The translations under genes were made by a program, and so were the position numbers. The notes beneath the pieces are model-generated. The model made no database searches and had not been told where the DNA came from. It worked only from the letters and a program-made list of their open reading frames with translations. Positions 15,599-21,362 of a stretch of 37,729 nt of DNA are shown in pieces; the first letter of the stretch is position 1, and every line of letters begins with the position of its first letter. Origin of the DNA: a virus; IMG/VR virus record IMGVR_UViG_3300017741_000018, positions 1-37,729 of that record. The stretch is one strand, 5' to 3'.

Positions 15599-16263
15599 TA
15601 ATCTTTATATAACCAATGATTCTTAATAAAATAACCCATAAAATTATATGATTGCCAAATTTTTGTGGTATCACCAATGCTATTTAGTTCTTTATCTAAT
15701 TCTTTTTGTGTCCTGCAAAACATTGATACTGATAATTGATTGTCTTTATCTAAAATTTCTTTATCACTAAAGTTTTTTCTTTTTTCTTGAATATGTAATC
15801 TATGTATTAGTGTTTGCAGTCTTGTATCTTCTAAATATACTTTTTCAGATAATAATATGATTGTACCTTTATCAATATATTTTTTTAAAAGACTTATAAC
15901 CCTGTTTCGTTTTGCTTGACCTAAGAATTGCAACATAAACATACATACAATAGTAGAAACATTTTTATCAAGGTATTCTATAAGAGCATCTTCTATATCT
16001 AAGTTTTCATATACAAATCCATCTCTTCTGTCTTTAAAATTTACAATATCAAAACCAACATAATTTGTGTTTTCAATTTTATCCAAATTATGCAGGTATC
16101 TTCCTGTTGAACAGCCCAAATCTAGAACATAACTTTCAGGTTGTGCAAATTCTTTTGTGATACAACTGAAAATTGTATCTAATGTTTCAAAGTTAGGTAT
16201 AGACAATTTAATATGATTGTCAAAATCTTCTACATTACTAAAATCAAATTTATTATATTTCAT
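15598..16263 (-). CDS. cmoA-like: CmoA-like SAM-dependent enzyme (carboxy-SAM synthase family)
   Basis: The 221-residue protein is a class I SAM-binding fold with motif I VLDLGCSTG (about 46-54). It matches E. coli CmoA in several places: FAQPESYVLDLGCS against FVQPGTQVYDLGCS; a F.LQFL segment; LLSEKVYLED against VLSEKFSFED; the following helix; and IWQSYNFMGYFI against LWFQCFNFGSLVA. CmoA converts SAM and prephenate to carboxy-SAM, used in tRNA wobble-uridine modification. In my alignment the CmoA Arg199 that holds the added carboxylate is Asp (in LDKDNQL), so the product may differ from carboxy-SAM. The start overlaps the methyltransferase beta gene by 11 bases, which ties it to DNA modification rather than tRNA. 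Confidence 0.75.
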   Translation of the reverse strand: MKYNKFDFSNVEDFDNHIKLSIPNFETLDTIFSCITKEFAQPESYVLDLGCSTGRYLHNLDKIENTNYVGFDIVNFKDRRDGFVYENLDIEDALIEYLDKNVSTIVCMFMLQFLGQAKRNRVISLLKKYIDKGTIILLSEKVYLEDTRLQTLIHRLHIQEKRKNFSDKEILDKDNQLSVSMFCRTQKELDKELNSIGDTTKIWQSYNFMGYFIKNHWLYKD

Positions 16264-16513
16264 ATTTATTATGCACCTCTTCTATTCTTGTTCCCAACCA
16301 TTCCATAACATTTATTGACATTGACCTTCCAACAGCTTCATATCTTTTAGATGTTGGACAATCTTCTTTTTCTTTTCCCTTATATGGTATTTGTGTATAG
16401 TTATCAGGAAATCCTTGAAGTCTTTCTGCTTCAATAGGAGTTACTTGTCTTAACTCTGTTTTTACATCTTTTAATTCTACATATACACATGGTTGTCTAT
16501 TGCCACCAGTCAT
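16253..16513 (-). CDS. Cytosine-5 DNA methyltransferase, C-terminal subunit (motifs IX-X), GRS variant
   Basis: The 86-residue protein carries motif IX (RQVTPIEAERLQGFPDNY, about 22-39) and motif X (RYEAVGRSMSINVMEWLG, about 57-74) of C5 cytosine methyltransferases. Motif X normally reads GNS; here it is GRS (R63, AGG codon at 16325-16327). The Asn lines the cofactor methyl-group pocket (N304 in M.HhaI). The ATG overlaps the stop of the catalytic subunit as ATGA, so both parts are made together, like the two-subunit M.AquI. The 3' end overlaps the CmoA-like gene by 11 bases. The protein cannot act alone because it lacks the catalytic domain. Confidence 0.85.
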   Translation of the reverse strand: MTGGNRQPCVYVELKDVKTELRQVTPIEAERLQGFPDNYTQIPYKGKEKEDCPTSKRYEAVGRSMSINVMEWLGTRIEEVHNKYEI

Positions 16514-17328
16514 TGCTGTAAGCGTTGGCTAATTTCTTCTTTTTGTATTCTTGCTGTTTTATCAGGACTACTAGTCTCAAAAACAGTAACAGAATATCTA
16601 TCTGAAGCTGTTAAAGTAAAACTAGAACCATCATTTTTATATGGTTTACCATTACTTTTAGTATGACTATCTCTAATTATGTATGGTTCTTCGTATTCTC
16701 TATAAGTGCTTTCTTTAGATTCTTTGGCAATGGTTTTTTTCTTTCTTCTGATCGGTCTAGCATCTTTTGACACCTCTTCTTTGTCAAATAATACTTCTGC
16801 AGGATATCGCCAGTCTCTAATATGTCCGACAACGAAGACACGCCTTCTTCTTTGAGGAATTGCTCTTGGATAGCGTTGTGTTCTGACATACTGAGTGTCC
16901 AAAACCCTGTAGGCGAACCCATACCCGAGTTGAGCCAATGCTCCGAGGAAGGTAGCAAAGTCTTCTCCTTTGTTAGATGACAAGACTCCAAAGACATTTT
17001 CCCAAATAACCCATGTGGGACGGACTCTTTCAATGAGTTTAATAAATTCAAGTGCGAGGTTTCCTCTGTCTTCATCAAGACCTTTCCTAAGTCCTGCAAT
17101 GCTGAATGTTGCACAGGGAGTTCCTCCCACAAGGACATCTGCGTGACATCCGATTTGTTCTTTTGTAATTTTTGTGAAATCCCCATAATTTTTTACCTCA
17201 GGATAATGATATTTTAACACCTCTGACCTAAATTCTTCTATTTCAGCAAATCCTATAGCTTCCCATCCTAATGGATGCCAAGCTACAGAACAGGCTTCAA
17301 TTCCACTACATATAGAGAGATATTTCAT
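16510..17328 (-). CDS. Cytosine-5 DNA methyltransferase, catalytic subunit (motifs I-VIII), PCA variant
   Basis: The 272-residue protein has motif I (LSICSGIEACS, 4-14), motif IV with catalytic Cys72 (GGTPCATFS), motif VI (ENV, E110), and motif VIII (IPQRRRRVFVVG, 157-168). The remaining 100 residues form a basic, variable region that could hold target recognition. In nearly all C5 enzymes the catalytic Cys is followed by Gln (PCQ); here it is Ala73 (codon 17110-17112). This is the same position (Gln82 of M.HhaI) that is changed to Ala in engineered enzymes that accept enlarged SAM analogues. The gene starts directly after the SSB-tip gene stop (TAAATG) and ends by ATGA overlap with the C-terminal subunit. 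Confidence 0.9.
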   Translation of the reverse strand: MKYLSICSGIEACSVAWHPLGWEAIGFAEIEEFRSEVLKYHYPEVKNYGDFTKITKEQIGCHADVLVGGTPCATFSIAGLRKGLDEDRGNLALEFIKLIERVRPTWVIWENVFGVLSSNKGEDFATFLGALAQLGYGFAYRVLDTQYVRTQRYPRAIPQRRRRVFVVGHIRDWRYPAEVLFDKEEVSKDARPIRRKKKTIAKESKESTYREYEEPYIIRDSHTKSNGKPYKNDGSSFTLTASDRYSVTVFETSSPDKTARIQKEEISQRLQQ

Positions 17329-19493: not shown

Positions 19494-19734
19494 TGTCAAA
19501 TCCAAAATACTTGTTTATTTTTGTAATAAGATTTTTATTTACTTTTCTTTTTTCTTTTATATTAGTGATATGACCTTTCCATGAAATAACTTCTCTTTCA
19601 GAAGCATTTTCTTCTTTGGCTCTAATAAGTCCAATTTCTGCTGACATAAGTTCCTGCTCTAAATAACATTCAGATAGTTTTTGTCTAATTATGGAAAGTT
19701 CTTCTCTGTTGAATTGAAGTTTAGGTTCTTTCAT
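19486..19734 (-). CDS. Hypothetical early protein, 82 aa, first gene of the leftward operon
   Basis: The product is a charged, helical protein (FNREELSIIRQKLSECYLEQ, KGHITNIKEKRKVNKN), likely coiled coil. No family recognised. The start at 19734 follows GAGGAC, and a strong divergent promoter with an operator-like site lies 40-70 bases upstream. It overlaps the exonuclease start by 8 bases. Confidence 0.65.
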   Translation of the reverse strand: MKEPKLQFNREELSIIRQKLSECYLEQELMSAEIGLIRAKEENASEREVISWKGHITNIKEKRKVNKNLITKINKYFGFDNE

Positions 19735-19776
19735 TTTATGTCCTCATTTTATAGTTTGTTAAAAGTTATAAGGCAG

Positions 19777-19805
19777 AGTATAATCCAAATTGGTTTTCAA
19801 TACAA
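19777..19805 (-). promoter_or_regulatory. Main leftward early promoter
   Basis: On the minus strand: -35 TTGTAT (19800-19805), 17-base spacer, -10 TATACT (19777-19782). It reads into 19734 and so into the recombination and modification genes. The inverted repeat CCAAATTGG sits inside the spacer. Confidence 0.6.
19785..19793. promoter_or_regulatory. Operator-like inverted repeat, site 2 (CCAAATTGG)
   Basis: A nearly perfect inverted repeat between the divergent genes at 19734 and 19831. It lies in the spacer of the leftward promoter and touches the possible rightward -35 box, as expected for a small lambda-type switch controlled by the adjacent Cro-like protein. Confidence 0.55.
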
Positions 19806-19818
19806 TATAAAATATATA
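19790..19818 (+). promoter_or_regulatory. Possible rightward promoter for the Cro-like gene
   Basis: -35 TTGGTT (19790-19795), 17-base spacer, -10 TATATA (19813-19818). The -35 box overlaps the operator-like repeat, so one bound protein could control both directions. The leader to the ATG at 19831 would be very short, so the exact -10 is uncertain. Confidence 0.35.
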
Positions 19819-19830
19819 AAAGGTAAACGT

Positions 19831-20034
19831 ATGAAATTAAAAAAATATTTAGAAACAAAAGAACTAACACAAGAAAAGTTTATTCAAGAAATGGAAGATC
19901 AAACTGGTCATAAATTATCACAAGGTGGTTTATCAAAATATGTTCTTGAATATAGAATTCCTAGAAAGGCAGAAATGGTTGCTATACACGAATATACAAA
20001 GGGTGAAGTAGAGCCAAATGATTTCTATCTTTAA
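19831..20034 (+). CDS. Cro/CI-like helix-turn-helix regulator, 67 aa
   Basis: The start is ATG 19831, after AAAAGG. The 67-residue product has an XRE-type helix-turn-helix: LKKYLETKELTQEKFIQEM (helices 1-2), LSQGGLSKYVLEYRIPRKAEM (recognition helix and the next helix), ending VEPNDFYL. Short size and no C-terminal domain fit Cro rather than a full CI repressor. It is the only rightward gene between the leftward early operons and probably binds the operator-like repeats at this and other promoters. Its stop faces that of the replication gene with one base between. Confidence 0.75.
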   Translation: MKLKKYLETKELTQEKFIQEMEDQTGHKLSQGGLSKYVLEYRIPRKAEMVAIHEYTKGEVEPNDFYL

Positions 20035-20035
20035 T

Positions 20036-20746
20036 CTAACCTACTTCTAAATCGTCAAACCAATTTCCACTAACTGTTTTTTCACTTTCAGTGGTTATCT
20101 CTTGCATCTTATAATCTTCGTAATCTAAAAAGCGTTTCTGATTTAACCAAGTAGTGCAGAAGGGAATGAACTTCTTATCTTTCTTTTGAAACTCTATATC
20201 ATTATTATAACTTTCTAGATAAGTAATCATCTGCTCATGACTAAACTTCTTCAATATAGCTTTATAAGATTCTTCTGCTTTAGCCTTATTGTCCTTTCTT
20301 GGATATAGAGACCAAAAGCTTTTAAAATCAGAATCATAGGCTTTAGTATTATCTTTAGTATTATCTTTTGTGTCTTCTTTAGTATTGGGGGGTGTGGAGA
20401 CCAGTAGGCTAGGGGTTTGTGGACTAGGGGGGGTAGGGGTCTCTAGACCCATAGGGGGGGTGTCTGTAGACCTAAGGGTCAGGAAGTACCTATTAGATGT
20501 ATTACCTCCATCATCTTTAAACCTTCTTTGTATTTTTAGAAGACCTAGACTCTCAAACTCTTTTACAATCTTAGCAATATGCTTTGGGTCTTTTAGACCT
20601 GCTAACTTTGCAATATGAGTATAACTAGGATAGCAACTATTCTGATCATCACAGTAGTTAGCTAGTAAGATTAAGATTAATCTCTTGGTTGGTGTTTGAC
20701 CTTCAAATTGAATCTTCAGTGCTTTGTTCAGACATTCTATAGACAT
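20036..20746 (-). CDS. O-like replication initiator with internal origin candidate
   Basis: The 236-residue protein has an N-terminal winged helix (LILILLANYCDDQNSCYPSY, HIAKLAGLKDPKHIAKIVKEF, GLLKIQRRF; about 21-90), a Pro/Thr-rich linker (about 95-120), repeated KDNT units, and a C-terminal part with FKSFWSLYPRKDNKAKAEESY and FIPFCTTWLNQKRF. This is the build of phage replication initiators such as lambda O or helix-turn-helix 36 proteins. They bind iterons in their own gene and load the host helicase. The linker DNA is G/C-rich and repetitive, see 20342-20475. It has its own promoter at 20783-20811. No helicase gene is seen in the window. Confidence 0.8.
   Translation of the reverse strand: MSIECLNKALKIQFEGQTPTKRLILILLANYCDDQNSCYPSYTHIAKLAGLKDPKHIAKIVKEFESLGLLKIQRRFKDDGGNTSNRYFLTLRSTDTPPMGLETPTPPSPQTPSLLVSTPPNTKEDTKDNTKDNTKAYDSDFKSFWSLYPRKDNKAKAEESYKAILKKFSHEQMITYLESYNNDIEFQKKDKKFIPFCTTWLNQKRFLDYEDYKMQEITTESEKTVSGNWFDDLEVG
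20342..20475. repeat. Iteron-like G-rich cluster beside AT-rich 12-mers, origin candidate
   Basis: Within the initiator gene, + strand 20387-20475 has five G-runs (6, 4, 7, 4 and 7 Gs) in an otherwise AT-rich genome. Read on the minus strand it contains about four imperfect units of the form GGTCT(A/C)nAGACCCC followed by CCCCCC. Beside it, 20342-20386 is three or four copies of an AT-rich 12-mer (TTTAGTATTATC). Four iterons beside an AT-rich unwinding region inside the O gene is the lambda origin plan. The G-runs could also form quadruplexes. Confidence 0.5.
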
Positions 20747-20782
20747 AGTTCTTTCCCTCGTTGTTTTTTATTTTGGTTTAAC

Positions 20783-20811
20783 AAGATAATCCTAATTAAT
20801 ATTTAAGTCAA
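20783..20811 (-). promoter_or_regulatory. Promoter of the replication initiator gene
   Basis: On the minus strand: -35 TTGACT (20806-20811), 17-base spacer, -10 TATCTT (20783-20788), reading toward 20746. It lies in the 79-base gap between the initiator and the gene at 20826. Confidence 0.55.
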
Positions 20812-20822
20812 TACAAATTGTA
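20812..20822. promoter_or_regulatory. Operator-like inverted repeat, site 3 (variant TACAAATTGTA)
   Basis: It shares the CAAATTG core with sites 2 and 4 but has A and T in place of the outer C and G. It abuts the -35 box of the initiator promoter. The weaker match makes it the least certain of the five sites. Confidence 0.4.
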
Positions 20823-20825
20823 CTA

Positions 20826-21362
20826 TCAAAACTTTCTTTGATATGGACTTTCGTGTTCTGATACATCTCTCATCATCCAACCAATAGGTATATCTTGTTT
20901 ATCAGGAAAAACCCAAAGATGATAAACATTATCAGTATCATGAACTCTACTTTCAGGTGGATATATTTCTACAGCACATCTGTTCCTACCAACAAGATCA
21001 TTTTTAATTTCTTGGAAATCACGCCAATCGCATAAATGTTCTTTGCCTAAACTAATTCTAATGCTTAACCAAACTGAGCCATCAAATGAAGAATTGTGTA
21101 TAAGGTTATTAGGGTCTCCTTCTTTGTAATACAAAGTCTTTTTAACAACTTTATATTTATCATCTTCTGAATACCAACATTCACTAGCTCTTAAATCATT
21201 AGCTACTTCTAGTGCTTGTTTTCTAGTAACCCCTTTAGCTTTACCTTCATCCATAATGAACTCTACAAGTTCTTTAAATTTCATATTATGTTGCTCAATT
21301 CCATTTCTTCTCATTTCCCAAGAACCAAACCTTTCTGATTTTATTAATTTGCACTTGCTCAT
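20826..21362 (-). CDS. Conserved phage protein, DUF7694-like, 178 aa
   Basis: The start is ATG 21362, which has GGAGGT nine bases upstream at the end of the previous gene; the frame continues to 21452 but that part is coding for the neighbour. Conserved-looking segments are VWLSIRISLGKEHLCDWRDF, EIKNDLVG and AVEIYPPESRVHDTDNVYHL with a W(M/V)FPD end. I recall such proteins as a widespread phage family of unknown function (DUF7694). Together with the two upstream genes it forms a coupled trio. Confidence 0.6.
   Translation of the reverse strand: MSKCKLIKSERFGSWEMRRNGIEQHNMKFKELVEFIMDEGKAKGVTRKQALEVANDLRASECWYSEDDKYKVVKKTLYYKEGDPNNLIHNSSFDGSVWLSIRISLGKEHLCDWRDFQEIKNDLVGRNRCAVEIYPPESRVHDTDNVYHLWVFPDKQDIPIGWMMRDVSEHESPYQRKF

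Follow-up and report, generated by a model that had tools for sequence, protein, structure and literature searches.

The locus described here raises the question of whether a marine phage carries its replication origin inside the gene for its own replication initiator and, if so, whether that origin is of the lambda type or operates in a mode unlike it. The window, i.e. the whole stretch of DNA analyzed, is a virus record of 37,729 bases, with genes for tail, portal, terminase, and head on its plus strand and a minus-strand early block that encodes an Erf-like annealing protein, an exonuclease-like protein, and methyltransferases in addition to the O-like gene. No DNA-level relatives were found in the phage collection. 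A C5 cytosine methylase is apparently split over two frames at 16253-17328 on the minus strand (16510-17328 and 16253-16513), and both parts match phrog_116, in successive portions. A small plus-strand ORF (19831-20034) adjoins the initiator gene in a block that is otherwise on the minus strand; it gave no more than a sub-threshold match to HTH_3 (E = 0.019) and is perhaps a Cro-like regulator.

The product of the O-like gene matched HTH_36 in Pfam (E = 4.1e-9) and, among the PHROGs, phrog_270 (E = 1.9e-42) and phrog_391, annotated as "replication initiation O-like" (E = 1.4e-13), with weak PHROG matches of its C-terminal domain to primosomal and DnaD-like loader families. The AlphaFold2 model (mean pLDDT of 74.6, pTM of 0.39) comprises a winged helix at approximately residues 1-90, a low-confidence linker at residues 93-133, and a helical C-terminal domain at approximately residues 134-209. 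Foldseek searches returned nothing at E ≤ 0.001, and the weak matches were to winged helices only (e.g. the DnaD N-domain 2v79 and Rep 5kbj, E of about 0.02); a PDB sequence search gave no match up to E = 1. Thus, Pfam, PHROGs, and AlphaFold2 all point to an O-like initiator with a winged-helix DNA-binding domain, and the candidate origin coincides with the DNA encoding its low-confidence linker, where the initial annotation had placed it. The window protein terminates in DDLEVG, unlike the tail N-x-(L/I)-A-G that is common to many of the related initiators (L023, L038, L043, L246, L253, and others), short ones included.

Table 1. Positions of the O-like gene and of the sequence elements in its linker DNA
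Feature	Position	Strand	Remarks
O-like replication initiator gene, 236 aa	20036-20746	-	Pfam HTH_36, PHROG, AlphaFold2
Iteron 1, GGTCTACAGACA	20461-20472	-	Codon phase 1; dyad centre at -81 from ATACTAAAG
Iteron 2, GGTCTAGAGACC	20438-20449	-	Codon phase 0; dyad centre at -58 from ATACTAAAG
Iteron 3, AGTCCACAAACC	20414-20425	-	Degenerate; codon phase 0; dyad centre at -34 from ATACTAAAG
Iteron 4, GGTCTCCACACC	20391-20402	-	Adjoins AT-rich side; codon phase 2; dyad centre at -11 from ATACTAAAG
Five G-runs (6, 4, 7, 4, and 7 G)	20387-20460	+	Four flank one iteron each
Invariant word, ATACTAAAG	20377-20385	-	Start of presumed unwinding region; conservation and one codon set
Four AT-rich 12-mers, AATACTAAAGAA, GACACAAAAGAT, AATACTAAAGAT, AATACTAAAGCC	20339-20386	-	Presumed DNA unwinding element; 75% AT

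The linker DNA contains four 12-bp dyad iterons of the GGTN6ACC type followed by four AT-rich 12-mers, bearing out the approximately four imperfect iteron-like units and the three or four AT-rich 12-mers originally described. The iterons are spaced by 23, 24, and 23 bp, and all three codon phases are represented among them. Their pairwise similarity was 52/72, compared with a mean of 29.4 after shuffling, and none of 1000 protein-preserving synonymous shuffles reached 52; in a free scan for iteron similarity, a value of 55 was obtained against a shuffled maximum of 46 (2 x 150 shuffles). Given that the same DNA word read in three frames yields different peptides, a repeat in the protein cannot account for the iterons. 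The dyad sum of the window alone (10/12) was a weaker signal, matched by 7 and 6 of 1000 shuffles, and the weight of the dyad symmetry therefore comes from the relatives considered below.

Five conspicuous G-runs in this region had led to the suggestion that quadruplexes might form and make the site unlike the lambda origin. Runs of at least four G are present at 20387-20392, 20412-20415, 20427-20433, 20436-20439, and 20454-20460, spanning 74 bases, and no other 80-nt segment of the window is as rich in G4/C4 runs (5 of a total of 42). When linker codons were drawn at window usage, a mean of 0.73 such runs was obtained, and none of 2000 draws reached five. Codon shuffling within the gene gave a mean of 2.76 runs, with 102 of 2000 shuffles reaching five, so that the excess is marginal by this comparison; this higher yield reflects the unusually frequent CCC of the O-like gene (in 17 other window genes, CCC accounts for 14 of 206 proline codons). 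The abundance of G-runs and the high G4Hunter score of the region (2.08) speak for an origin defined by quadruplexes of the G-rich strand, and this strand may fold in vitro. Against such a mode stands the lack of any canonical G4 motif (loops of ≤7) in the window, where only a loose one was found at 20412-20439. Nor is a canonical motif kept across relatives: it was present in 7 of 56 distinct linkers of the nearer branch (A, defined below) and in none of the 44 branch B linkers, 35 of which have no C-run of four or more. Furthermore, all runs but 20427-20433, which is extra, adjoin or overlap an iteron of their own, always at the same flank, so that the G-runs belong to the repeat unit and can best be regarded as a lineage-specific portion of an extended iteron. 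Runs of a comparable kind (GGG, GGG, GGGGG, and GGGGG) also occur in the iteron region of lambda, and the G-runs do not, then, set the site apart from it. A quadruplex-defined origin is accordingly very unlikely, and the G-quadruplex was rejected as a general defining feature.

The AT-rich block that adjoins the last iteron is a candidate unwinding region, and only 4.9% of the 48-mers in the window are less stable. The least stable 48-mer of the gene starts elsewhere, at 20175. GC skew, proposed at the outset as a check, turns at 13-14 and 22 kb and has no turning point at 20.4 kb; it tracks gene orientation and was rejected as an origin locator. An element acting at the RNA level was likewise rejected: an Rfam scan of 19700-21000 gave no match up to E = 1, and no terminator-like site was found in 19700-20900. 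The repeats might instead serve as operators for regulation of the initiator gene by its own product or by another protein, with the origin located elsewhere. Dyad sites for a winged-helix protein would suit an operator equally well, and the minus strand has a weak promoter-like match at 20376-20348. However, promoter-like matches occur at chance level (6 found versus 4.5 expected), the sites are situated mid-gene rather than at the gene start, and their regular 23/24-bp phasing beside a block of low stability copies the arrangement of the lambda origin. We consider an operator improbable on these grounds.

The first search for relatives used linker peptides as patterns. Since this yields a set biased toward the word ATACTAAAG, relatives were recollected with the N-terminal domain only. 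Branch A (the best 80 of 223 relatives) mostly carries the helix KDxKHI or KDxKGV, and branch B (the best 80 of 93) carries the helix SDRxxRR. A dyad test anchored on ATACTAAAG, which took in word-carrying sequences only, revealed peaks at -11, -34, and -58 for branches A and B alike, with z-scores of 9.1, 7.0, and 5.0 for the 56 distinct linkers of branch A and 18.5, 15.3, and 4.7 for the 44 distinct linkers of branch B. These peaks were not reached in 200 protein-preserving synonymous shuffles, although the z-scores ignore kinship and, the sequences being related, overstate independence. Branch A showed a secondary peak at -43 as well (z = 5.1), consistent with the 18-bp spacing seen in some KGV genes (e.g. 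L038 and L136). With ties counted as -11, the best dyad was located at this position in 47 of 52 branch A and 41 of 49 branch B sequences. The iterons themselves differ, being GGTN6ACC-like in branch A and GGACN6GTCC in branch B, and it follows that the recognized sequence changes while the geometry stays. Dyad iterons are repeated within the initiator gene at a spacing of about two helical turns in the window and in its relatives; a conserved protein without DNA repeats, the case raised in the initial annotation as evidence against an origin, was not what was encountered.

What is new here is an invariant word that is phase-locked to the iterons. Of the 70 distinct branch A genes, 5 end before the end of the linker; the 65 that extend beyond it all carry AATACTAAAG in frame (65 of 65). 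In these genes, 45 columns are occupied by one amino acid in 95% or more of the rows, and a single codon was used only at Phe-64, Asn-121, Thr-122, Lys-123, and Lys-127. The last four of these positions are encoded by the word and its repeat, and the other invariant residues mostly vary their codons. Elsewhere in the same genes, ACT accounts for 25% of threonine codons and AAA for 66% of lysine codons. This comparison of codon columns is a better control than the shuffle z-scores, the columns sharing one tree.

In branch B, AATACTAAAG was found in frame in 30 of 56 complete genes (56 of 73 distinct; 17 of under 130 codons were set aside and examined separately). With one mismatch at most allowed, and with genes of <110 codons and, for branch B, the 14 loci L309-L322 left out, the word was present in 52 of 54 branch A linkers, the remaining two genes being cut off, and in all 49 distinct branch B linkers (42 exact, 7 with one mismatch). 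The 14 loci form a distant clade (30-36% N-domain identity) without the word, which is also missing from two relatives in bacterial genomes (Kaistia and Bradyrhizobium) and from the annotated phages nearest by protein. A DNA search with a relaxed pattern placed 84 of 92 sites (91 loci), among the matches listed, in O-like genes, with 4 more in O-like genes cut by a contig end and 4 elsewhere; this set, selected by pattern, shows specificity, not conservation.

The frame of the word bears on whether the linker is selected as protein only, as a Pro/Thr-rich spacer with a conserved NTKEDTKD peptide of which the DNA repeats would be by-products. The NTK..TK peptide is indeed conserved, and the word occupies the same frame in 52 of 52 branch A linkers reaching it and in 47 of 49 branch B linkers. 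By contrast, protein selection would not explain the one codon set at Asn-121, Thr-122, Lys-123, and Lys-127 where other invariant residues vary theirs, or the occurrence of iterons in three frames at a similarity far above that of synonymous shuffles. In two relatives, L245 and L246, the first copy of the word lies in another reading frame, yet its distance of 11 bp from the dyad centre is unchanged; its position follows the iteron rather than the protein frame. Codon use, frames, and shuffles led us to reject selection on the protein alone, the least probable of the alternatives considered, and the sequence comparisons show that ATACTAAAG is conserved at the DNA level and phase-locked to the last iteron.

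Short initiators of 113-132 aa that lack the C-terminal domain also keep the iterons and either the word or a one-base variant of it. Such genes occur in L253-L303 (e.g. L253:1501-1857), where the winged helix is kept and the C-terminal domain is lost; the gene next to the short initiator in L253 is primase-helicase-like, with CPQCQPPH and a Walker A motif. The word occurs in the window, among whose 30 scanned proteins no primase-helicase was recognized, and also beside primase-helicase-like next genes (L246 and L253). Given its presence with and without such a neighbor, the helicase is probably not its reader, which would be the initiator or a host factor. A second recognition site may therefore exist in the lambda-type origins of this large phage family, namely the nine-base ATACTAAAG, fixed in sequence and in its 11-bp distance from the centre of the last iteron, the single-stranded form of which would be recognized by the initiator or by a conserved host factor, a proposal that we regard as evenly balanced between right and wrong. 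No paper naming this word was found in the literature on phage origins, which is no proof of absence. In another O-like family (L327-L406, L157, L159, and L160; Vibrio and E. coli phages, many of them isolate prophages), the word AGAACCAGTCACTCTTT(T/A)GAACCAGTCA follows the repeats and is possibly an equivalent element; in this set, which was selected by pattern, the codon phase is the same at 60 of 61 distinct sites and differs in L380.

The iterons with their spacing and frames, the dyads across relatives, the DNA-level conservation and phase-locking of the word, and the low duplex stability are all evident from sequence, whereas the steps of binding, melting, single-strand reading, and helicase loading in the following scheme are inferred. 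Winged-helix dimers would bind the four dyad iterons, which lie ∼23 bp (slightly more than two helical turns) apart, and build an O-some-like complex. By analogy with lambda, this complex would strain the adjoining AT-rich 12-mers and cause them to open. ATACTAAAG, which is the first word of the opened region and whose distance to the last iteron's centre is exactly 11 bp, would then probably be read specifically, most likely as a single strand by the initiator, after which the replicative helicase, presumably that of the host in this phage, would be loaded. We judge it highly likely that the region is such a lambda-type origin within the linker of its own initiator gene. Thus, the initial annotation was very probably correct in proposing an origin, and one of an established type, as indicated by the three-frame iterons, lambda-like spacing, AT-rich flank, and conserved architecture; its quadruplex component is not supported.

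The way in which initiators lacking an ATPase domain open DNA is a matter of continuing debate. Here, the iterons differ between two branches that share both the geometry and the word, which separates a variable recognition of the duplex from a fixed step on the opened strand, and the latter becomes testable with short oligonucleotides. If the proposal is correct, the word would amount to a DnaA-trio-like element serving phage initiators, given that it is conserved while iterons, the C-terminal domain, and neighboring helicase genes change. In addition, evolution has provided many paired data, each gene combining a DNA-binding domain with the sites to be bound, and such iteron sets could help in learning the rules of winged-helix recognition.

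Comparison with known systems places the locus closest to lambda. The annotated lambda iterons (39034, 39054, 39078, and 39101) lie inside O and are followed by AT-rich DNA, with spacings of 23, 24, and 20 bp counted from the AT-rich side. Both loci have dyad iterons mid-gene in different frames, spacings of 23 and 24 bp nearest the AT-rich side, and an AT-rich block downstream of the iterons in the coding direction. They differ in iteron sequence and length (12-bp units here versus about 18 bp in lambda) and in the word, since lambda lacks ATACTAAAG at -11 and has ACACAAAAG at about -9. Among the 30 window proteins scanned with PHROGs, no P-like helicase loader was recognized; a P gene next to O is a trait of the lambda operon rather than of the origin. 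The O genes of the P22 and HK446 types also contain an AT-rich stretch, and theirs holds ATACAAAAG. Neither resemblance in the word was significant: 148 of 200 synonymously shuffled genes matched as well as lambda did with ACACAAAAG, and 57 and 31 of 200 matched as well as P22 and HK446, respectively, did with ATACAAAAG. A word shared with these phages, although appealing on inspection, is therefore a lead only.

In the RK2, F, and DnaA-trio systems, the origin lies outside the initiator gene. Plasmid Rep proteins (RK2 and F) and DnaA have sequence-specific single-strand sites in the unwinding region (PMC4081077, PMC10797057), and these systems share with the present one an iteron-binding initiator and repeated words in that region, with different proteins and with single-strand binding here being a prediction. 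For lambda-type O proteins, PMC7466680 describes dimers that bind iterons next to an AT-rich tract within gene O, a minimal unwinding unit of two iterons plus the AT-rich tract, and binding of O to the AT-rich single strand. The fixed word at a fixed distance from the last iteron resembles, in its logic, the single-strand sites of Rep and DnaA.
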